From Dryococelus australis (taxonomy: Eukaryota; Arthropoda; Insecta; Phasmatodea; Phasmatidae): 64,000 bases of DNA. The translations under genes and the position numbers were made by a program. Within the stretch, counting starts at the first letter, position 1; each line of letters starts with the position of its first letter. A model generated the notes under the pieces. The model was not told where the DNA came from, searched no databases, and saw nothing but the letters and a program-made list of their open reading frames with translations. The stretch lies in the NCBI GenBank assembly GCA_029891345.1, contig CM057005.1, positions 61,025,760-61,089,759 on the forward strand, given 5' to 3'. Below are positions 18,364-58,100 of the stretch, in pieces.

Positions 18364-18603
18364 ATGTGTTGCACCACCGTTCAGAAAATAATTTCGGCGA
18401 TCATCACATGCAGGAGGCTATGCTCGCCCGTGGCCCTCGATACGGAAAAAGAACTAGCCCCTCTATCGAAAGAGTTCCTGCTGATGTATGCCCACGACGA
18501 AGATCGGTACGTGTACAAGAGACTTCCAGGCTACCTGCAGCACGACGAAGATATTCGCGACTGCCTGAGTGTTACTGTCAATCACATACAACTGCCAAAA
18601 TAG
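18364..18603 (+). CDS. Unrecognised 79-codon open frame downstream of a TATA box
   Basis: The second half is protein-like and acidic (ELAPLSKEFLLMYAHDEDR, VYKRLPGYLQHDEDIRDC). An overlapping frame from 18339 is basic and Arg-rich and looks like a shadow. The frame ends in TAG at 18603, about 350 bp before the mariner right arm. No family is recognised. Confidence 0.35.
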   Translation: MCCTTVQKIISAIITCRRLCSPVALDTEKELAPLSKEFLLMYAHDEDRYVYKRLPGYLQHDEDIRDCLSVTVNHIQLPK

Positions 18604-25395: not shown

Positions 25396-25595
25396 ATTGA
25401 ATAATAGACTATAACAAATATATATGTTACTGTAGCCTCAGACGTTAGATATCAGAGTTGTGAATTGTATACACTGTGTTTATTAGTCAGATGTCAATGT
25501 TTGTATTAAAAAAAGTGGCGGAAAAATAGAAATTAGCTGAAAGGAAAAATTTTGCTGGGCCTCAAAAAGTGCTAACATTTACCGTGAGTTGCCTA
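25396..25595 (+). mobile_element. TAGGCTGTTCACGG MITE, short core, 5' truncated (copy K)
   Basis: The interior (TGTAGCCTCAGACGTTAG, GTATACACTGTGTTTATTAG) aligns with copy H. The right end GTGCTAACATTTACCGTGAG, then TTGCCTA, is an eroded terminal repeat. The left 40-45 bp with the other terminal repeat is gone or replaced by the preceding repeat. Confidence 0.65.
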
Positions 25596-26275
25596 TGCCT
25601 GACTGCAGTTTGTCTGTAAAACACGTAAAAAACTATTCCACGTAAGCAATATATGTTTGCACTTGAAAACGAGATAAGACTTAAAACTAGGGCGGAATAC
25701 AACTTTCAACATATCACGCTTACAGCAAACACTATTTCGAAGCTCTTTGACGTGGCCAAAAATACACTTTCAGAGTGTTACAATGTAAAATATCCTCGCC
25801 GAATTCCTGCGGAACATTTAGCATTGAACATTGATAGAGACTTTCCACCAATAAAATCACAGGGTTGGCCGAGAAAGGGTGACGACGGTAAAAAAAAAAA
25901 AAAAAAAAGCAATCCTGGAAACCCGTGCCATTCTTCGACAGGCATCATCATGTTGTCAAATTGTACGCTGAATCCACACCAGTGAGGGAAACGCACCAGG
26001 CCTCAGAATATCCCGGACTTATCACTCTGCAGTCTGTGTACTCCCGATCACTGCCATGGAAGATCAAGCATCAGAGGAGGTTTCTCGCCGCACCATGAAG
26101 CCAGCAGTTCCGGCGGCGTGTCGCTCAGCAATCAAGTCCGAAATTGTGCGCTATCCGGTGATCCATCATAGTCTAGTATAGTGCGCGCCAGATTAGTGCT
26201 TCCGCGTAGCAATGGAAATATTCCCATTCCCAGGTATAATGACTGTTGAGCTGGGGACTGATCTTAAGGGTATAC
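25596..26275. other. No gene supported
   Basis: A 110-codon plus frame at 25653-25985 ends in an A18 run translated as poly-Lys. No domain is recognised and the splice context is poor. Confidence 0.35.
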
Positions 26276-32892: not shown

Positions 32893-33230
32893 TAGCGGCC
32901 GTTGTGGTGTAGCAGCTAAAGTACTTGCCTATATAGGCTGCTCACGGTAAAGAGCACTTTTGAGCTCCTGGTTACTTTTTCATTTCAGCCATTTTGTTTC
33001 CTGCAATCACATTTTTACAAAAATATTGCCACGTAAGTAATAAACACCTTGTGTAGATACCACCCCATTGGGAAATTAACGTCTTAGGCTAGAATGAAAT
33101 ATATTTATCGACTATTTTTCAAAACGAGAAGGCTTTAAATAGTGCTCACTTTACCGTGAATGGCCTATACCAAGGAGATCCTGGTTCGACCTCTGGCGGG
33201 ATGACTGGGCGCACTGGGCCGCGAATGCAT
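32893..33230 (+). mobile_element. tRNA-derived SINE split by MITE E
   Basis: The left part GCGGCCGTTGTGGTGTAGCA carries a consensus A box (TGGTGTAGCAG). The right part (from 33168) continues CCAAGGAGATCCTGGTTCGA with the B box GGTTCGACCTC, then GGCGGGATGACTGG. Removing MITE E and one TA restores normal A-B spacing (about 32 bp). The head matches the SINEs at 59150-59368 and 62160-62422. Confidence 0.75.
32934..33167 (+). mobile_element. TAGGCTGTTCACGG MITE, short core (copy E)
   Basis: TAGGCTGCTCACGGTAAAG at the left, inverted TAGGCCATTCACGGTAAAGT at the right, TA at 32932-32933 and 33168-33169, 234 bp. The core (GCCATTTTGTTTCCTGCAAT, TTGCCACGTAAGTAATAAAC) matches copies F, G and H. It lies between the A and B boxes of a SINE. 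Confidence 0.9.
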
Positions 33231-34492: not shown

Positions 34493-34729
34493 TAGGCCGT
34501 TCACGGTAAAGTGAGCACTTTTTGAGACAGTCTCATCAAACATAATAGTAAAAAAATTCATCTCATTGTGGTCTGGGACTTTTGATTATGGGTAGGGTGA
34601 AGTGTATTCACCGTGTTTATTACTCACATGGTAGTGTTTACATTTATAATATGATGGAAGAATATTAATTTGCCGAAAGAAAAAAGTAACGAGGGCTTCA
34701 AAAGTACTCACTTTACTGTGAACGGCATA
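34493..34729 (+). mobile_element. TAGGCTGTTCACGG MITE, short core (copy F)
   Basis: TAGGCCGTTCACGGTAAAGT at the left, inverted TATGCCGTTCACAGTAAAGT at the right, TA at 34491-34492 and 34730-34731, 237 bp. The core has CACCGTGTTTATTACTCACA as in copies E and G. Its right flank TACCTG is the splice-donor triplet GTA (minus strand) of the candidate exon at 34733-34988. Confidence 0.9.
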
Positions 34730-34732
34730 TAC

Positions 34733-34988
34733 CTGTAATATTTATCCAGAAGCGCAGATTTATCGACATCAAGATTTAAAAACAATGTGTACTGCCTGTT
34801 AAATACGATAGGCCGTACTGGACTTTTGAGCGAAAATCCTCTTTGAAATAGTATAAATTGGATTAGCCCAACATTATCCAGGCTCGTTAATGTAGACTGT
34901 CGCCCTCCATACATTAGCGTTTCGCAAAAGAGGGACAAAGTAGGAGACATCGGTGGTTTAGGGAGAATGAGATATTCGCATGCTGATG
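34733..34988 (-). CDS. Candidate internal exon, unrecognised product
   Basis: On minus an acceptor (CATATGCCTAG) at 34990-34989 opens 85 codons without a stop, ending at a good donor ATTACAG|GTATAT. The translation is protein-like: SACEYLILPKPPMSPTLSLF, CETLMYGGRQSTLTSLDNVG, LIQFILFQRGFSLKSPVRP, NRQYTLFLNLDVDKSALLDK. I do not recognise the family. The polypyrimidine tract before the acceptor is weak, which lowers confidence. MITE F starts immediately downstream. It could also be part of an unrecognised old element. Confidence 0.4.
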
Positions 34989-47495: not shown

Positions 47496-48471
47496 GCCAG
47501 GACCATATTATACTCCTCCTATGTGTATACAGTATTAGGCCAGATCTGACGCACAACCTTCGTTGAGGTTATTACTTGTGGGACGCTTTCTACCTGAACT
47601 GAATAACAAGGAAGACATGGGCCCATGAAAATCCAATTTTTTATGCTATATGTTTTTCGAAATATCGGGAAGAAGTGACATTAAGTTACAATTCTCCGAA
47701 CATTGTTTTATGTTACTTGGATCTTCAACCTAAGAGCAAACTCTCGGTTGCGTAAGTCATGCCTTGAAATATATTTTCCGTAGATCATGTCAGAGCAGAC
47801 ATGAAATCATTCTAAACCAGTGAATAAGCATTTAAAAACAATTTGAAATATTGATGTGTAGAAATTTTTTGTGATTAATAACTTCTCCGCGATTTTTTGT
47901 GGTTCACTTACATCGATTACTTTGATCAGACGTAGTGAACCCAAGACCTGTCTCACGTACTCAGTAATTACCGTACAATTAGAAAACGCGTAAAAATACA
48001 CACAGGTAATTATAAAAAAGCGTATTTTGAAGTTAGCTCATCAACAGGTTTGAAAAATTAGATACTGAGACGCCAATTTACTTTTTTAATACTCCTTATG
48101 TTTCCATTTCATTCTGTTCGTCATATCAGAATATTTTTGCTAATATTAACACATAACACCGAAGCCAACGCCTACAGGAAACTTCATTCCTTTGGAGTAA
48201 ATTAGTATCCTGAGCTGTTCGTCTGTTGCTACAATAAATGCATCTACACCAAAAGTAAGACTTCAAGATGAAAACATAATGTCCATCACTGAGGCTTCAT
48301 ATCTTAACATACATGTTTGATCCTCAAGAAATCACATAATTTGCACTGTACGTTGTAGTTTAGACTGCAGGATTTGTGGTAAGTTAATTCCAAAAACTTA
48401 TTAAATGTTAAAATTGCCTTTCAACCCTTGTTGAGAATGAGAATGTTCCAAGAACCCTAACATAAAATGCA

Positions 48472-48665
48472 TAGGAGTAGTATAAAATAGTAGATTGACG
48501 CAAAGGGTATCGGGGATAGGATTAGGATTCGGGGGAGCTGCCATCTTGTTACGTCACCCTCCACCATATTGGATATAATTGACCTTTACCGTTACCTTTG
48601 ACCCGTGACCTTGACCTTGACCCCAGTAACCTCAGACCCCAAAAACCGAAAAAAATGCGAAAAAT

Positions 48666-48670
<5 letters not shown>
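48472..48670 (+). repeat. Left terminal inverted repeat of the 6.66 kb element
   Basis: It pairs with 54930-55128. It contains CCATCTTGTTACGTCACC (a CRE-like word TTACGTCA next to CCATCTTG) and tandem GACCTTKGACC nuclear-receptor-like half sites, both kept in the right copy (CCAAGATGGCGGACGGTGAC and GGTCAAAGGTCA). An AT microsatellite separates it from the AT-rich inner arm. Confidence 0.8.
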
Positions 48671-48705
<35 letters not shown>

Positions 48706-49029
48706 CGAAAAATTTAATTTAAAATCTAAAAAAAAAAATTAAAAACAGTCTTGAAATAAAAAAAACCGGTTATTAAAATTTTAATTACAAAATCGTTTAA
48801 CAATAAAAAAAATTGTTTGAAAATTTACTTTAATAAAAACGTCGTTAGCCCAGGCGGCCATTTCTCCTTTCTTTCCCTCGAAATTTCCCTTTAAAAATTT
48901 TATTGAAAAATTCTTTAAAAATTTTTATTTAAAAAACACATATGTATGTTACTGCCTCTCTCACGTCTGTTCGACCACCTTCGTTCGACTAACCCTAGCC
49001 ATTGAAACTGGCTAATTAGTCGGCTCCCC

Positions 49030-49625
49030 TTCACCCCCACCACTCCAGCTTTGCAATATATTTAAGTGCACAAGTACCCCGCCAATCTATCCGATTGGCT
49101 AATTAGTCACATCTGCACCACCCCGCCAATGATTTTTTCTCATTGACTAATTAGTCGCTTTGCTCCATCCCTTCCATCATCCACCAATGCTTCCCATTGG
49201 CTATTTACTCTGCCAATGCTTCCTATTGGCTAATTAGTCGCTTTGTTCCAACCCCTTCACCACCATCAATGTTTCTCATTGGCTAATTAGTATGCCAGTG
49301 CTTCCCATTGGCTGTTTACTCACTCTACTCGACCCCCTCCACCACGTGACAACCCTTCCGATTGGATGATTAACTCGGGTATCTTCGGAAAACTTCGTTC
49401 TACCAATCAGAGTTTAGTCGGCTTCCCTCCACCACATCTGGTCGAACAATTAGTTACTTCCGTTCACCCCCACCAATCTATCCGATTGGCTAATTACTCC
49501 CTTCACTCGATTCAATGTTTCTCATTGTTCACATCTGTTCCACCTGTCCAATCAGAGTTTAGTCGGCTACCCTCCACCACCTCTGTTCGACCCCCTCCAA
49601 TCTCTTCGATTGGCTTTATAGGGCG
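49030..49625 (+). promoter_or_regulatory. Array of paired CCAAT boxes, putative promoter
   Basis: About ten irregular units of roughly 45-60 bp repeat the pattern CCAATnnTTCCnATTGG followed by CTAATTAGTCG or CTATTTACTC and a C-rich spacer. Most units therefore hold two CCAAT boxes facing each other. The last unit runs into CGATTGGCTTTATAGGGCGC, a TATA-like site at about 49614, 114 bp before the ATG at 49728. NF-Y-type binding and promoter function are inferred. Confidence 0.6.
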
Positions 49626-49727
49626 CATCCTGAGGGCCTCTGGGAAAACGTTGCACCTCGCTATTTCGAGAGGAGACCCAGTGATCATTTCTGAACATGT
49701 AAGTGACAAACGTCTTTTACGGTAGCC

Positions 49728-50039
49728 ATGTCATCAAGTACAGAAGAAAACGTCAGCAACACAGAAGACACCAGAGACAATATACTTCAGCTCATCCGCA
49801 CGATATTGGCACGAGGAGCAACGTCGTCTACGGATAGGAAAACACGACCATCAGGCAACCTGATACCGCCAGTCAACCCGCATCCATCAGTCAACTCGTA
49901 TCAGCCCCCGAGATACAATGTATTCTCAGCCAGTTTCGCAGTGTGTCCCATCAGCTCCGACTTCGATGACAGCGACATCGAAGAAGTGACCTTCGCTGAA
50001 ATTTTCTCAGTTCAGGTCAGAAGACACGAGCAAGTATAG
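49728..50039 (+). CDS. Unrecognised 103-codon frame, first after the CCAAT array
   Basis: ATG in a fair context (GTAGCCATGTC) opens MSSSTEENVSNTEDTRDNIL with an amphipathic helix (NILQLIRTILARG), a basic Pro-rich middle (TRPSGNLIPPVNPHPS) and an acidic segment (SSDFDDSDIEEVTFAEIF) that resembles an activation or SUMO-interacting patch. No domain is recognised. Codon use is GC-richer than its surroundings. A CAG|GTCAGA word near the end could be a donor to later exons. Confidence 0.45.
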   Translation: MSSSTEENVSNTEDTRDNILQLIRTILARGATSSTDRKTRPSGNLIPPVNPHPSVNSYQPPRYNVFSASFAVCPISSDFDDSDIEEVTFAEIFSVQVRRHEQV

Positions 50040-50358
50040 TGAACTGAATTGGGGGTACCGACGCGCATGTTTTTGAGACACTAGAGGCGTTCTACAAATT
50101 AAATGGCTATGCTGCTATGATGAGTTCGAAGGCTGCTACATGCTGAACACGCTAACGTGCGATTACAGAAACTGCTTAATGTACAATTTTTGTCCCGACT
50201 CTACGCTCCCCTGTTCGCCGGAGGAGTTGGTAAAACAACATTGTCATGATCACATAAGTAAGGAAAGAACGTACGAAAGTCTATTGTATGAACAGTTCCA
50301 ATAAAATATAAATAATATATGTAAATGGCTCGAGAAATACGATGGTCGTAACCACGTC

Positions 50359-50724
50359 GTGAAAAGGCATGGATTTCCGAACTGGACCTCCCACTGCACG
50401 CCGTATGAATATGAAGTGCACCTAGGCTCAAGGCCGAGACCTCTCACCAAGTCTTCTCGGAACGACGGAGTGCATCCTGACAAGTTTAATCCAGAGAAAC
50501 AATACGCAAGTATATCGCCTGTACTGCACGGCGTAACTTACACGGACCAGCCGTCAGCTACCGTGACCGCGGAGAGATGTGACGAAAATGTTAATTTCCT
50601 CTTCCTCGAAAGAAGAATAATCTATGGTAAGGTGTTTGAATTAACTTTGCAAGATTGCGAAAGTGACGATTGCGCGGTTCATATGTGCCGTCCACAAAGT
50701 TCCCCACAAACGTTGGAAATATGA
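50359..50724 (+). CDS. Unrecognised 121-codon frame, second in the element
   Basis: Protein-like through its length: MKRHGFPNWTSHCTPYEYEV, SRNDGVHPDKFNPEKQYASI, RCDENVNFLFLERRIIYGKV, LQDCESDDCAVHMCRPQS. The stretch just before it (50130-50290) is also coding-like and Cys-rich (CDYRNCLMYNFCPDSTLPCS), which suggests a Cys-rich, possibly metal-binding or disulfide-rich, product. A further helical piece (EIADERHTTKYERENCEIIH) follows at about 50722. No family recognised; function unknown. Confidence 0.45.
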   Translation: MKRHGFPNWTSHCTPYEYEVHLGSRPRPLTKSSRNDGVHPDKFNPEKQYASISPVLHGVTYTDQPSATVTAERCDENVNFLFLERRIIYGKVFELTLQDCESDDCAVHMCRPQSSPQTLEI

Positions 50725-51315
50725 AAAAAGAAATTGCGGACGAACGACATACAACCAAGTACGAAAGGGAAAATTGCGAAATTATTCACGAAATTAAAAA
50801 AATGACAAACTATTTAATGTATGTTCGGAACAGTATGATGGTGCTTGGCACGGTTTGGAGGTTACAACACCTTTGAACCCATGGCCAGAGGTGCTTGTGT
50901 GTACTTGCGCATACGAGCTTTGGTCTATCTATAGAAGAACCCAGGTGATGAAAACTTCCCATTCCCCTTGCAATTTTTTTGTGTTCAACTGAAACATACT
51001 GTGTAAATAACATAATGCTGTACGTGATTAGTAGTATGGAGTGGAAAGGAAAGTATCTTATGCATAAGGAAGATCATTATTATCTAATAATATTTTTCTT
51101 TGCTTCAGTAAAATGTTCGGAAAATATATTTTCATCTTGTAATATTCATGTTTACCAAGTTTGTCAGTAAATGTGTTAATTCTGTTAAAAATATTTTTTT
51201 TCAAGTGGTTTGTGTGTAAATACAATGTATATATAATTTTCTTTCAATTTTTTGCAAGTATGATGTATGTATGTATTTATATTATTTTCTTTCAATTCTT
51301 TTTTGTGTGAAAGTA

Positions 51316-51520
51316 TGAAGTATCTATAAATTGGGTGACGCATTTAAAACAGGCCACCTTAATAAATCGGCCACTTGTAACAATAGAGGGAAATGTTTCA
51401 GACAAACATTTGGGGGAAAGGGGCCATAATGTTATGTTAATTAAGAGGTGTGTTGTATACCGAAATATGAGTGTCAACTGCGGTATAAATGGGACTATGT
51501 GGTATTTCAATCTGTGATTA
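51316..51520 (+). CDS. Unrecognised exon-like frame, third in the element
   Basis: A pyrimidine-rich tract (TTTTCTTTCAATTCTTTTTT) and AAG form an acceptor at about 51313. The frame then reads YEVSINWVTHLKQATLINRP, LVTIEGNVSDKHLGERGHNV, IKRCVVYRNMSVNCGINGTM and ends WYFNL at 51517. Strongly protein-like; no family recognised. The upstream tract is duplicated about 45 bp earlier (51232-51262). Confidence 0.4.
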
Positions 51521-52030
51521 TGTGTTACATATCTTTTATTTTGTAAATCAATTTTCTGTAGATAGGAAATGTGCTGTGGCGTTTTTCCGTATTTGTTATA
51601 TTCCCTCCTTTTACATTTAAAAGGATGGTGTATTGAGGGGGAAAATTTGAAAATTTATTTTATGCTATTGAATATATGGACTGATATAAATATACTTTAA
51701 GGATATCACACTAGATACTAAATAAGTGCACCCTTAAAAAATCCTATTATTAAAATGAATAGCGACATTTATGGAGTTTCTTTAGGGAAACATCTAATAT
51801 GGTATACAGAAATATAAATAAATAACATCAGGTTGATAAAAGACATGAAAGAAGAGTTGAATTAATTCCCCCTTCTTGACCACTCGATGTGATCCTTTTA
51901 ACATGCCCAAAAGGAGTAATTATGTTGGTTAAGTTGGTGGATCAAAAGTTTATGTTGGCCAACATGTTTGCACTTGTGTGTGTAGCATGTAACAGGATGT
52001 TGTTATCAGTTGTGATAGTGCATTGTGCTT
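51521..52030. other. AT-rich middle of the 6.66 kb element
   Basis: No frame stands out. Probably UTR or spacer between the plus-strand and minus-strand gene sets. Confidence 0.35.
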
Positions 52031-52037
52031 GAATGTA

Positions 52038-52106
52038 CCCGGAACTTGTTTATCGCCCGGAAGTTGTTTATCACCCGGAAGTGGTGGCTTGGTGGGGCCC
52101 GGAAGT
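52038..52106. repeat. 18 bp repeats with CCCGGAAGT, promoter-like
   Basis: CCCGGAASTTGTTTATCR occurs at 52038, 52056 and 52074, with a further CCCGGAAGT at 52098. CCGGAAGT is an ETS-family core, so the cluster may be regulatory. It also produces short Pro/Gly-rich open frames on both strands, which I do not call. Confidence 0.5.
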
Positions 52107-52740
52107 ACAGCCGGTGATAAGGTCCCAGCACATAGCAGTATAATGAAAGATACGGTTCGCTGCCACGGGGTTGGCACTCATATGTTAAATGCCGAGCGAG
52201 TAGGTTGAAGTAGTAGGTGCAGGCTGATCCTGAACTTTTCTGTTTTTTTTTTTTTGTGTTCTTACTTTGTTTTGAGGTATGAATCTGTGTTGTATTAATA
52301 GTTTAATTCCTTTTGCATATTATATTAATTTTTACACATTTACATGTGCTAGTTAATATAGGTCAGTTTCATTGTGCAGTGTGCAATTTTATTTTAAGTG
52401 AATGCCGCTTCTTTAGATAACTATTTGTTGTAATAAGAAAAAAGAACTAAAAAAAAGTGTGACAAATTTAAGTTTGGTTAATATTGCTGGTAATAGAAAC
52501 TGTTAAAAAAAAAAACACTATTGCACGTACTTGTCCCATTCTCCAAGTGAATAGCAAGCACAATATATACATATTATTTACTAAAAAACTTACTTACATT
52601 TCTGTTTACACAGGCAAAAAACAATAAATTCTAAACACACACACAGTTATAAGATAAATAACATGCAGTTGTATTGAACTTTACAAACACATACAAATAA
52701 CAGACTAAATAAAAATTTATAAATGTGTGTCGCTTTGTAT

Positions 52741-53040
52741 TTAAAATCGCATATGTTTTATATACGTACAAATGTCTCGATTGGAATGGAGATTCTCGCT
52801 CGGTAGAAATAGTTTCACAAGTTGTTCCAGGTTACATTTCACCTCTCTAAGAACACACTTACAGTTAGACATTTCTAGGTGCACATTGGCAACATCGATA
52901 TGTAACGCAAGTAATCTTGTTTCAAAGTTATTTAAACAATGACCGATCTCATCACCATCGGTTTGAAGGGAGGGTGTGATAGCATCGAGAGACAGCGAAG
53001 ACCACATGTCCTCCCATATTTCTGTCATTGATAGGATCAA
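52741..53040 (-). CDS. Unrecognised 99-codon frame on the opposite strand of the element
   Basis: ATG at 53040 to stop at 52741. Helix-rich and acidic at the start (MTEIWEDMWSSLSLDAITPS), then a likely coiled coil (NNFETRLLALHIDVANVHLE) with Cys (CKCVLREVKCNLEQLVKLFL). An overlapping frame at 52952-53134 (VLHVYATLPTETHRVTESPV) lies just upstream. It runs toward the plus-strand genes, giving a convergent layout. No family recognised. Confidence 0.4.
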   Translation of the reverse strand: MILSMTEIWEDMWSSLSLDAITPSLQTDGDEIGHCLNNFETRLLALHIDVANVHLEMSNCKCVLREVKCNLEQLVKLFLPSENLHSNRDICTYIKHMRF

Positions 53041-53449
53041 TATCAGAGACTGGCGAGTATTGTATCTGCACAGGCGACTCCGTCACCCTGTGAGTCTCTG
53101 TTGGTAGTGTTGCATACACATGTAAAACAGTCATTTCGGTCGATCTACGTTCTTGCTGCGGTATGTTGGCACCTTCTAGTAGCAGTGAACCTCAGTAATG
53201 GTGTTGTCACACGTAGCCAACTCACCTGTCTCGAAGCCATGAAAGGGCGGCTACTGGGGATGTAAGTGTGTGTGTGTGTGTTCCTCCTGTCGCGTGTCCG
53301 GTGCTGTGTGTCTAGTTCTGGGTATCAACACCTATCATATATAGTCCAAACTTAGTGCTGTAGAGTGTAGAGGAATATGGGAGAACAGCATGGATAGTTT
53401 TCCGGAAATACAAACACCAGTTAATTTAAATCTCTTGATGACTTATGCT

Positions 53450-53665
53450 GCCACGTCGTAGAGTTGCCTAGCGACGGCCAACTTTGTTGAAGGGGAAGGG
53501 GGGGGGGGTGGTCACCCAGCGAGGGGGTGCGGGGAGGGGGAAAGTCAGCTGGCTGCGGCACACAGTGCAGAAACAGAAGTCGTGCAGAGCAGACACACTG
53601 CCCGTCAGCTCATCGGTCGCCGTCGAAGGGGGCAGCATACTGGTAAGTCTTCATAACCCTTGTAG
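53450..53665. promoter_or_regulatory. GC-rich promoter-like patch with splice donor
   Basis: A CpG-containing, G-rich patch (GGGGAAGGGGGGGGGGTGG, GCCGTCGAAGGGGGCAGC) ends at a consensus donor ATACTG|GTAAGT on plus. It may be a first exon and promoter on plus, or the upstream control region of the minus-strand frames ending at 52741. Confidence 0.3.
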
Positions 53666-53860
53666 CTGAACATTCTCAGGTGGCGGATGGCTGGTTCGGT
53701 GGAATAAAATACTGAAGTCGGTACGGTGATATTTCCCAGCACTGTTACAAGTTTCGTTCGTAAAAAAACTTAGTATGTATTTGTTTGTTGCGGCTCGCGT
53801 CCGTCTCTCTTTTCCGTTAAATTGTACTAATATGCAGTATACCTTTACGATGCATCAAAT

Positions 53861-53897
<37 letters not shown>

Positions 53898-54499
53898 CAG
53901 CTGTGTATTCCCCCCCCCCCCTCCATCCTTCTCGGAGTTTACAATGAAACTCGTCCTGTGCCGTCATGAAGTTTGCAAGTCTACAAATTGCTTGGTTCCG
54001 CATATACTCGGGGACAAGTTGGTGCGAATGTAGACTTCACACTGACAAATATATATGTTTTAAACGTGCTAGTGAGTTTGATCTACTTATAGTTTGTCGT
54101 GCAGATAAAAAGCACATTATTTAGAAATAAAAATATTTTATAAGGTAGCTTGATATTAATAAATCATCCCTCTTTCGTAAGTAATGCTTGTATGTAGGTA
54201 GAAACTGATGTGGACTAAGAATGACAAAATATTACACGAATATATTTTTTTAAGTCGATAAATATGAGTGTCGCTCTGCCGACATCCATATGGGCGCTAA
54301 GCGGGAGGGAGACAGCGCGTGTCCCTACCCCCACCCCGACAAAGTTTTTTTAAAAATGAAATCTTTTAATAGAAAATGTTTTAATAAAGTGGGAGGGTAC
54401 GGAGCGGTTGCGACTAAACCCACTACACTTGCGCTACCTAGGTGATGTAAACATATAGATTTTTTAAATAAATATTTTTTAAGGGAAATTCTTATGGAA

Positions 54500-54850
54500 A
54501 AAGATAAGTTTCGAGAGAACAAAGGGAAAAATGGCTGCCGGGATTAAAGACTTTTTAATAAACAAATTTTTTAAACGATTTTTAAAATTAAAAATTTCTC
54601 GAGGGAACTTTTTAGGGAAAAAGGGAAATTTTGAGGGAAAAAGGAAAAATGGCCACCGGGGTTAACGATTTTTTGACTAAGAAATTTTAAAATAAAATTG
54701 GATAAAAAATAAATTTTAAAACTATTGTTTTAATAAAAATTTTTACAGGAAATTTTGACTGGAAATAGTCAAATACAAGAGAAATTTCTAAGGGGAAAGG
54801 GGAAAAATCGCTGCCGGGGTTAACGAATTTATAATTAAGAGCTTTTTAAA
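54500..54850. repeat. Degenerate subterminal repeats in the right arm
   Basis: Three units of GGGAAAAATGGCYGCCGGGRTTAACG type lie at about 54521, 54640 and 54798 (spacing about 119 and 158 bp), each followed by TTTTTAATAA-like text. One inverted unit is visible in the left arm (GGCGGCCATTTCTCC at 48855). The right arm has evidently expanded. Confidence 0.6.
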
Positions 54851-54929
54851 ATAAAATTTTATAAAAATAAATTTTTAAAGCGATTTTTAAATTTTTTAAG
54901 CTATTTTTAGTAAGGGTTTTTTGTTATAA

Positions 54930-55128
54930 ATGTTTTATAATTTTTTTCGCAAATGTTTCTGTTGTGGGGTTAGAGGTCACCGGGGTCAAGGCAAGGTTTC
55001 GGGTCAAAGGTCAATGTCCATGACATCCAAGATGGCGGACGGTGACGTGACAAAATTGCGGCTCCCCCGAATCCCAATCCTATCCCCGATCCCCTTGTGC
55101 GCCAACCTACTCTTTTATACTACTTATA
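54930..55128 (-). repeat. Right terminal inverted repeat of the 6.66 kb element
   Basis: Inverted partner of 48472-48670, roughly 80-85% similar by eye over 190 bp, with small indels. Confidence 0.8.
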
Positions 55129-56290
55129 GGTGTATTCTATACAGCAAGATATGTTATCAGCTATTAAATTGTCAGAAACAAAACAATCAGGACTGCCTTA
55201 GCAGAAATTGTTGGAAATGCTTACATGGTAGATTTATAGCGATTATATGAATTTATCATTTGAAGAAGAGTAGACAAGAAATTTCGTAATCGAAATTCTA
55301 CAAAACTTCAATCTTTCTGTGTTTTAAAATTAACCACTGTAAACTCAATAGAAGACTTTATGTGTCATTACTGCGACTTTTACAAAACATAACTGCATTA
55401 AGGTAAATGATTCCAACAAAAGCCAAATAATGTTTTTAATTTTTTTTTAAATTTTATATTCCTGCAGGGGCCATAATTTTTGGACAGATCAGATGTAAGC
55501 ATGAGTTTAATTATCACTAAACACTTGTAAGCACATTTAGAAAATGAATGCAAACAACCGTACTCAAAATGTCACAGGGTCTTTGTTTAGCCTTGAAGGT
55601 TGCTGTGAGTTTCTCCAGTCTTATAATCCTTTCACAGTTATGGTTTCATGACATCGTTTACTACGACCATGTTGTCTTAAATATTGCGTTAACTTATAAG
55701 TAAGAGTGTAGAAATAAGACTTTCAAAAATAATTCGCTTAATTCGCTGCAAATAATCAAATAAAATGATCTCATTTCGCAGGTTTGCTTATGCAATATTT
55801 GTCATGTTTATGTGTCAAGAGGATTTTGTAATCTGGACACTTTGAACATTTTCTTGTATACAACCAAGTAGGTTATTCCTTTATCTTTGTTACAATTACA
55901 CTGTATTTCTAGTCTTCGTTTAACATTAAGGGTTACCTCTTTGTTTGGAGTATTGAATAACTAATGTTTGCGTATGGCAAACACATTTTCCGAAGCAGTC
56001 CGTTTTTGAATTTACACTGCAATGCTCTTCGCAGCGACAATTTTCATACACTATCTGAAAAACATAAACATTAAAAAACATTGTCAAGCAAAATTGTGAT
56101 ACTACTCAACACCAATATAGAATTTCTATTCTGAACGTGTACCTGTCCGTAAATATGCGATACAACTAGAACCATGCTACAATACAATCGAAATGCGGAT
56201 TTCATTAATTTGCATTCAACAATTCCATAAAGGAAAAGAAACAAATAACTTTGGGGTTTGTATGGAAAAAAAACATGAAAGTTTTAAAAA
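55129..56290. other. No feature seen
   Basis: AT-rich sequence between the large element and the poly(A) signal of the downstream minus-strand exon; no credible frame or repeat boundary. Confidence 0.4.
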
Positions 56291-56553: not shown

Positions 56554-56681
56554 CTGGCAGCAATTAAGAAAGCCGCCCACAAACGCCCTGCGCAGAAGGC
56601 GAGGCCTCGTTTAGCCACAAACTCTCGTGGTCGAAAGGTCCTACATCGCAAGCTTGTTAGGGTGAGATTTGCCCGGCTTTA

Positions 56682-57524
56682 TAGGCTGTTCACGGTAATG
56701 TGAGCACTTTTGAGGCCCTAGTTATTTTTTCCTTCCAGCCATATTTTATCCTTTAACCACGTTTTTAAATAGATGTTGCCATGCAAGTAATAAACACAGT
56801 GTGTTTATCCCATCGCACTTGGAAGTTAACGTCTAAGGCTAAAATAAAATACGCTATATACCAAAAAGTAACTGGGCACCTGTCCACAATGTTTGCTCGG
56901 TGGTTGTCACCCCGTTAGAATCTCGTAGGGCCACCTCTTGCGGCTATAACAGCAGCCATCCTGCCTGGTATGCTCTCTACGAGTGTTTGCAGAACATCCA
57001 CGTGGATTCGTCGCCATTCCTCTTGCAACCATTCCATGAGTTAAGCAATGGATTTTGGCCTCGCCTGACGAGCCCTCACCCGGCGATCCAAATCGTCCCA
57101 AAGATGTTCTATAGGGTTGAGGTCGGGGCTCTGGGCGGGCCAGTCCAATCAGAGAACATTGTTGTCGGCGTACCACTGCATAGGAGCCCTTGAAAAATGG
57201 CACCTGGCATTGTCATCCTCGAAGTAACACGGGCCCATTTCGTAAAAAACACCTCAATGTTGGGAGCATTTGATTATCCAGAATGTTACAGTAGGCCTCT
57301 GTGTTCATGCTACCACGGACAAACACCAGCGGTCCTACGCCAAAGGCCGTGAAACACAAGTCAACTGACGTACTGAATTACCTATCTTCATGGGTGCCCA
57401 ATTACTTTTTGGTAGATAACCTATCTTCATGGGTGTCCAATTACTTTTTGGTAGATAGTGTATATTCACTTTTATTCCAAGCGAAAGGGCTTTAAAAAGG
57501 ACTCACTTTACAGTGAATAGCCTA
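56682..57524 (+). mobile_element. TAGGCTGTTCACGG MITE, short core, split by a Tc1 fragment (copy G)
   Basis: TAGGCTGTTCACGGTAATGT at the left, inverted TAGGCTATTCACTGTAAAGT at the right, TA at 56680-56681 and 57525-57526. Without the roughly 0.6 kb insert the body is about 240 bp and matches copies E, F and H. Confidence 0.85.
56855..57458 (-). mobile_element. Tc1-like element, internally deleted, inside MITE G
   Basis: Ends TATATACCAAAAAGTAACTG and inverted TATCTACCAAAAAGTAATTG. On minus the 3' half of a DD34E transposase is readable in pieces: [39 protein letters not shown] (with the catalytic Glu in NPIEHLW), EWLQEEWRRIHVDVLQTLV and ESIPGRMAAVIAARGG. The N-terminal DNA-binding region and first catalytic Asp are deleted, and there are stops and at least one frame change. 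A 39 bp unit carrying the transposase-5'-side terminal repeat is tandemly doubled at 57381-57458. Confidence 0.85.
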
Positions 57525-57582: not shown

Positions 57583-58100
57583 GGACATTTCGCGTCAATG
57601 CGTTATTTCAAAAGATAGGCGTTTCAAACAAAATGTATTCTTCGCGAATTTTTCGAGGGGAAGATTGCTACGAGCGTATATTTTCAATATAGATAGAAAG
57701 TATATATATATATATTTTAAATATATATCTTAAAAATTCCTTGCTATAAGCCATTCACGATAAAGTGAGCACTTTTGAAAGCCCTCTCAATCGTAATAAC
57801 AGACAATAACTATATTTTATTGTAGCCATAGACGTTAAGCCATAGCCGTGGAGTATACAATTTGTGTTTTTTGCTTATATAGCCATCTTTATTTAAAAAG
57901 GTTTTTACAGGGATAAAATACGACTGAAATATAAAAGTAACTAAGGCCTCAAAAGTGCTTACTTTACCGTGAATAGACTATAACAGGCTGTACATGTTAT
58001 GAAAACATCTCCGCCGTAGGAAACACCTAAAAAATTCGTAAAGAATTCATTTGGTTTGAAACTGCTATCTTTGGAATTCACGCATTAAGGCGAAATTTCC
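57583..58100. mobile_element. TTAA-flanked MITE containing MITE H
   Basis: TTAA at 57579-57582 and 58101-58104 flank GGACATTTCGCGTCAATGCG and inverted GGAAATTTCGCCTTAATGCG. The inverted match goes on through AAAGATAG, GTTTCAAACAAAATG and CGAATTTTT for about 95 bp. Without MITE H it is about 280 bp. Confidence 0.8.
57747..57980 (+). mobile_element. TAGGCTGTTCACGG MITE, short core (copy H)
   Basis: TAAGCCATTCACGATAAAGT at the left, inverted TAGTCTATTCACGGTAAAGT at the right, TA at 57745-57746 and 57981-57982, 234 bp. Nested in the TTAA-flanked MITE and thus younger than it. Confidence 0.9.

Follow-up and report, generated by a model that had tools for sequence, protein, structure and literature searches.

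The stretch of Dryococelus australis DNA analysed here (the window, 64,000 nucleotides, C13:61025760-61089759) contains an element with long terminal inverted repeats that spans positions 48476-55124 (6,649 bp). Its left border, at 48476, opens with AGTAGTATAAAA (first hexamer AGTAGT), and its right border, at 55124, closes with TTTTATACTACT (last hexamer ACTACT). The original prediction, made from the sequence alone, had placed the element at 48472-55128; the element itself was borne out, but each border had been drawn 4 bp too far out. The inverted ends were described well: where an inverted match of about 190 bp, weaker out to about 480 bp, had been proposed, the left and right arms are 80.5% identical across 190 bp, and weaker matches (70% and 78%) continue to about 460 bp inward. 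Between the ends lie an array of CCAAT palindromes, a broken gene on the plus strand (the left gene), the remnant of a second gene on the minus strand (the minus-strand gene), two nested repeats and a right arm. As the stretches 51502-52334 and 53262-53750 are separate repeats foreign to the element, about 5.3 kb of the 6,649 bp is element-derived sequence. We are confident that this is an old Maverick/Polinton copy, non-autonomous and now broken, that has undergone internal deletion.

The termini are those of a Maverick. PMC8097293 gives (AGT)2//(ACT)2 or (AG)3//(CT)3 as Maverick termini, and the AGTAGT//ACTACT of the window equals the former; further likenesses to the elements described there are gene sets on opposite strands, a target duplication of 6 bp and long inverted repeats, which measure 46-1447 bp in vertebrate Mavericks. 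The duplication was assessed in eight family elements with both ends read, namely the window copy and seven others of about 17.2, 18.0, 8.5, 13.8, 2.1, 8.0 and 5.1 kb. The flanking hexamers agreed at all six bases in two elements, at five in three (including the window), and at four, two and one in one element each. When flanks were paired across elements as a control, the mean agreement was 1.73 of 6 bases and none of the 56 pairs reached five. Comparison of the flanks at 4, 5, 7 and 8 bp gave no signal comparable to that at 6 bp.

These ends recur in the 3.415-Gb eukaryotic assembly that contains the window. The 501-bp left end gave 63 matches (40 of 2365 candidates were scored), and the 32-base core of the terminal inverted repeat, with up to two mismatches, gave 219 matches versus none for a reversed control pattern. 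Among the 100 core matches listed, ten pairs lay within 30 kb of each other in convergent orientation and none in any other orientation; therefore, the two ends belong together. The core-to-core distances of the ten listed pairs are 1.85, 2.4, 4.1, 5.0, 6.1, 6.6 (the window), 7.9, 8.1, 10.3 and 17.2 kb, and the longer relatives measure 13.8, 17.2 and 18.0 kb from end to end. Short forms of 1.85-8.5 kb are recurrent in the family, and the 6.65 kb of the window is one of many spacings, not a family length. The refuting condition named in the original prediction, ends that do not normally lie about 6.7 kb apart, thus received a mixed answer: the ends do pair, exclusively convergently among the listed pairs, but at lengths from 1.85 to about 18 kb. 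Two very short members, C2:64360479-64362332 (1.85 kb between cores) and L016 7388-9457 (2.07 kb, with no 6-bp duplication seen), may be Mavericks that consist of ends only.

The core genes that the window copy lacks are present in its longer relatives; those for a double-jelly-roll capsid protein, a retroviral-type integrase and an A32-type packaging ATPase are hallmarks of Mavericks/Polintons. Open-frame pieces from fetched family loci (L numbers) were scanned against Pfam at E up to 0.01. In 108 pieces (93 from L009-L013 and 15 from L014, L015, L018, L020 and L022), the double-jelly-roll capsid domain PF21738 was found nine times (best E 2e-56), together with the integrase core rve (8.5e-8), the poxvirus A32 packaging ATPase Pox_A32 (2.6e-5), the adenovirus protein X Adeno_PX (3.5e-6), a phospholipase A2-like domain (3e-7), a chromo domain (0.001) and C2H2 zinc fingers; the 17 families found in total include a remainder that is weak and unrelated. 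A further 87 frames yielded three weak, unrelated families, and 150 others (from L014, L015, L020 and L021) yielded the capsid (2.3e-9), rve (0.00026) and a C2H2 zinc finger (0.0076), besides seven weak families that we take as chance. A weak Peptidase_C5 match at L010:2-448 (0.091) fell below the cut-off, and similar frames occur in five further copies and not in the window. According to tblastn, the capsid, ATPase, integrase and protease-like frames recur across the relatives, as does a frame that, by its position, is a candidate for a minor capsid protein. In the window copy, tblastn at 1e-4 found no capsid, and the integrase, ATPase, protease-like and minor-capsid-candidate frames were not found either. 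Adintoviruses likewise encode a capsid protein, an integrase and PX-like and PLA2-like proteins; unlike them, the family described here is a repetitive and mostly broken genomic family, with no confirmed hit in two viral-contig scans. Within the 8.0-kb element, a BRO-N/DUF3627 protein, of a type known from large DNA viruses, lies beside Maverick genes (L018 6106-6828). The relatives with integrase, ATPase and capsid genes span 13.8-18 kb, and intact vertebrate Mavericks span 12.7-24.6 kb (PMC8097293). As its 6.65 kb falls below the latter range, the window copy is filed as a deletion derivative and not as a complete Maverick.

The genomic layout links the left arm of the window to Maverick capsid genes independently of the fetched copies. 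Wherever one of the listed capsid matches (126 scored of 18149 candidates) lay within 20 kb of a place matching the left or minus-strand gene, it was on the opposite strand and 3.0-6.7 kb downstream (9 of 9 pairs, at eight loci), which is the ambisense arrangement that the original prediction had pointed to. Such a capsid match accompanied four of the 39 other scored places of the left gene and five of the 39 of the minus-strand gene, and a listed capsid match accompanied none of the 39 of the right arm; here and below, these counts of 39 cover scored matches only and are read as at least 39.

Both arms of the window element are homologous to copies that carry core genes. The segments 49120-51323 and 52336-53260 match L009 at 79-81% and L012, L014 and L020 at a similar level (76-86%), and 53750-55124 matches L015 in pieces (70-74%). 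L014 and L015 are the halves of one 13.8-kb element, in which both arms thus co-occur with core genes; its capsid region is locally rearranged, which disqualifies it as a clean full-length copy. Left-arm and right-arm places were found within 25 kb of each other and in the same orientation at five loci, three of them via the left gene and two via the minus-gene segment. In the window, the left arm ends at 53260 inside the minus-strand gene, the right arm resumes at about 53751, and the core genes are lost; the internal deletion that removed them, and not a new kind of element, best accounts for the absence of recognisable proteins here. The nested repeat at 51502-52334 has no match in L009, L012, L014 or L020, and elsewhere it often forms close inverted pairs, like the arm of a long-inverted-repeat or fold-back element. 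The features are listed in Table 1.

Table 1. Features of the window element, in window coordinates.
Feature	Position	Strand	Basis and remarks
Left target-site duplicate CATAGG	48470-48475		5/6 bases agree with right flank TATAGG
Left terminal inverted repeat, strong part; begins AGTAGT	48476-48664	+	80.5% over 190 bp against right arm; weaker to about 48936
Array of CCAAT-N7-ATTGG palindromes	49082-49613	+	7 units with up to 1 mismatch, 9 with up to 2
Broken left gene (open pieces 49707-50036, 50077-50301, 50305-50721)	49707-50721	+	Coding signal, frames
Nested unrelated repeat	51502-52334		39 other scored places, 79-85%; right boundary set by query end
Left-arm segment common to longer copies	52335-53260		79-86% in L009, L012, L014, L020; 39 other scored places
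Remnant of second gene	52744-53191	-	Lacks first 95 residues of L009 open frame; cut at 53259
Nested unrelated repeat of about 489 bp on deletion junction	53262-53750		Occurs by itself at 39 further scored places, mostly with two boundaries nearly identical to these
Right-arm segment of the Maverick family	53751-54450		69-80% at 39 other scored places; L015, partly L028
Right terminal inverted repeat, strong part; ends ACTACT	54943-55124	-	Arm alignment; weaker inward to about 54725
Right target-site duplicate TATAGG	55125-55130		Flank comparison

The window frames are broken pieces, which rules them out as whole genes. The left gene is best seen in L031 and L030, where single open frames of 313 and 320 amino acids span most of it, and its segment 49650-50800 was found, whole or in part, at 39 other scored places (80-86%). 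Across 12 copies, the first part of this gene had a ratio of nonsynonymous to synonymous substitution rates (dN/dS) of 0.50 and stop codons at 8 of 1193 codons; for the second part, the values were 0.59 and 19 of 2371. A reverse frame of the first part had a dN/dS of 0.55, yet contained 26 stops in 1171 codons. In the control regions, 50900-51300 (10 copies) and 52400-52735 (11 copies), dN/dS was 0.71-0.92 and 0.68-0.96, with 44-75 stops per approximately 1190 codons and 37-93 per approximately 1090. The minus-strand gene gave a weak codon signal (dN/dS 0.63, equalled by a second frame), and its protein is conserved over many copies. The coding signal that was expected across copies is therefore clear for the left gene and weak for the minus-strand gene. 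Similarly, of the frames that had been described as running inward from both sides, the left gene and the minus-strand gene do converge, but the latter begins in the middle of the element, and no coding frame was shown to start from the right end.

No recognisable protein had been reported for the element, and this held. The window frame that was tested contained no known domain. The left gene, the minus-strand gene and the right gene of the relatives had no Pfam match at E up to 1 and no significant match in PHROGs, where the sole match of the minus-strand gene scored 0.074. The left gene had no match in the PDB at E up to 1. Scans of viral_contigs with the left gene and the capsid protein gave no confirmed relatives, and structure prediction for one window fragment was uninformative (mean predicted local distance difference test score 29.6).

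Directly upstream of the left gene, the region 48940-49650 contains 16 CCAAT/ATTGG boxes, whereas 1000 dinucleotide shuffles gave 2.1 on average and never more than 7, which upholds the predicted CCAAT array. In the fetched loci L009-L028 and L030-L036, palindromes with a spacer of seven bases occurred 77 times with up to one mismatch, followed by a spacer of 15 (33 times) and all others (3-16 times each). At least nine boxes per 711 bp were found in 16 of the 47 loci examined. L001 and L029 among these are the window, L002, L003 and L006 overlap L014, L010 and L020, and L047 is a mitochondrial copy, which leaves ten separate box-dense stretches in fetched family loci. The array is thinner in L011/L012, and by the nine-box measure, there is none in L013, L018 and L022. 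As it directly precedes the left gene, the array is most likely the promoter or control region of that gene, and judging by the dyad symmetry of its sequence, the CCAAT unit could be a binding site for a protein of the element. In a literature search on CCAAT, NF-Y or palindromes with Polinton, none of the titles listed concerned Polinton CCAAT arrays, and the construction of an array from CCAAT-N7-ATTGG palindromes is new to us.

The genome holds many matches to DNA polymerase B (at least 54, and at least 153 with a 200-residue query). In the window copy, tblastn with one 200-residue piece recognised none. None was recognised by Pfam in 345 frame pieces from L009/L010, L011/L012, L014/L015 and L020/L021, a scan of frames of at least 62 residues without low complexity that a badly broken gene could escape, or by tblastn with 80- and 200-residue pieces in the fetched copies. 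All three left-gene copies with both ends (L009/L010, L011/L012 and L014/L015; the right end of L020/L021 was not located) thus are without a recognisable polymerase B, a detail that is new to us. At three of the 39 right-arm places, a polymerase B match lies 8-16 kb away in a consistent orientation (chance expectation 0.087). A polymerase match also lies within 20 kb of one of the 39 left-gene places and of one of the 39 minus-gene places. Of these two matches, the one on C7 is immediately beyond the 18-kb copy and the one on C5 is 17.6 kb away on the same strand; neither shares the orientation and distance seen at the right-arm places. The list-based test is weak for showing absence, as the capsid-polymerase link used as a control appeared at 1 of 126 capsid places. 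For these reasons, namely the three right-arm places and the weakness of the lists, we dropped the unqualified claim of a family without polymerase B. A narrower proposal, which we hold only tentatively and consider doubtful, is that a branch of Mavericks has its polymerase B replaced by the left module (the iteron-like array and two ambisense genes of no recognised family), keeps the integrase, ATPase and capsid, and lives as a satellite of polymerase-bearing Mavericks. Both flanks of the 18.0-kb C7 copy (L011 1-206 and L012 8932-9200; 43.70-43.72 Mb; ATTGTG/ATTATG) read as polymerase by eye, and this copy appears to be inserted in the polymerase B gene of another Maverick.

The history of the window element may be reconstructed as follows. 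A longer copy with integrase, ATPase and capsid genes would have lost its centre, from 53260 in the minus-strand gene to the right arm at 53751, and the shortened element would have retained the long terminal inverted repeats at both ends. The integrase for its movement and the protein-primed polymerase for its copying would have come from other Mavericks in the genome, and integration would have produced the 6-bp duplication. Two unrelated repeats would have inserted, of which the 489-bp repeat, on the junction, may have played a role in the deletion, and the element would then have decayed. Of this account, the ends, the duplication, the homology of the two arms to core-gene copies, the loss of the core genes and the decay are shown, and the movement in trans and the order in which deletion and insertions took place are inferred. 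At silent positions within the frames of the left gene, its copies diverge by 13-18%, and the arms of the window copy differ by 19.5%. This suggests several to about 10% change per copy since insertion, assuming that the arms were alike at insertion.

Some observations weigh against this account. The window copy is placed among the Mavericks by its ends and its homology, and contains no core gene itself. Its target duplication (CATAGG/TATAGG) has one mismatch, two of the eight elements with both ends have no duplication, and the element borders were set by eye from homology to the AGTAGT hexamer, in which some copies carry mutations. At two of 98 places with the core of the terminal inverted repeat, the same strand carries a capsid match within 20 kb, which means that layouts vary within the family. 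Finally, 52600-53260 is matched, in full or in part, at 39 other scored places, and at none of them does the match continue into 53751-54350. As no second copy of the junction was found among these places, this precise short form may not have moved at all once the deletion had occurred, and the deletion could be later than the insertion. Whether the deletion thus occurred in place, after insertion at full length, in a form that was itself never mobile, seems to us an evenly balanced question: the host repeat on the junction also speaks for it, whereas the recurrence of short forms in the family indicates that such forms may well move. We consider it rather unlikely that the element is a composite, in which a left arm (CCAAT array, left gene and minus-strand gene) and a right arm from two Maverick families were joined by recombination and not by plain deletion. 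The different relation of the two arms to polymerase B described above fits such an origin, as does the sharing of the left arm by L009/L010 and L011/L012, whose right ends are largely different (L011 keeps one 121-bp match, to 53765-53882). However, the five loci at which both arms occur in the same orientation, including the 13.8-kb copy with core genes, argue for arms that belong together.

Membership of an undescribed group with no relation to Mavericks, whether a superfamily of transposons or a family of viruses, would accord with the absence of a known domain in the window frame tested and with the lack of matches in Pfam, of significant ones in PHROGs and, for the left gene, of any in the PDB. 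This reading is refuted at the level of kind by the Maverick ends, the 6-bp duplications and the longer copies that carry capsid, integrase and ATPase genes, among them one that shares both arms, and we regard it as highly improbable. The original prediction of a large transposon or an old virus-like insertion, a fossil and not whole, was right in kind, as Mavericks/Polintons are both, but these same features show that it is not undescribed. Ginger transposons share terminal inverted repeats and, with the relatives found here, a Gypsy-type integrase, but PMC2836005 gives TGTNR ends and 4-bp duplications for them. As the ends here are AGTAGT, the duplications 6 bp (the 4-bp comparison gave 0-2 of 4 matches) and the relatives equipped with capsid genes, Ginger was rejected. 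Within the Mavericks/Polintons, the non-autonomous window copy differs from the vertebrate elements in its length of 6.65 kb without a capsid, integrase or ATPase gene, in the unrecognised gene pair and CCAAT palindrome array of its left arm, and, together with the fetched left-gene copies, in the lack of a recognised polymerase B. A literature search on non-autonomous Polintons, by phrase queries, found no paper.

Other features were seen outside the element. At window 18433-18567, a stretch of 45 residues that resembles the protein of the right-end gene in longer Maverick copies (58%, 8.5e-8) may represent a second Maverick scrap. A short interspersed repeat occurs at window 25399-25596, 32932-33167, 34493-34743, 56680-56851, 57463-57524 and 57747-57982, and is shared with L011 2483-2720. 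The nuclear contigs contain very many fragments of mitochondrial COX1 (102 matches when 96 of 381 candidates were scored), and one nuclear COX1 copy is free of stops in the invertebrate mitochondrial table (AGA = Ser, TGA = Trp), which points to an invertebrate host.

With its longer relatives identified, an element that looked like an orphan becomes a readable case of the decay of Mavericks into short forms, within a size series of about 1.9 to 18 kb in one genome. If the left-gene branch does lack a polymerase of its own, it would be a natural test of the copying of Mavericks in trans by their relatives.

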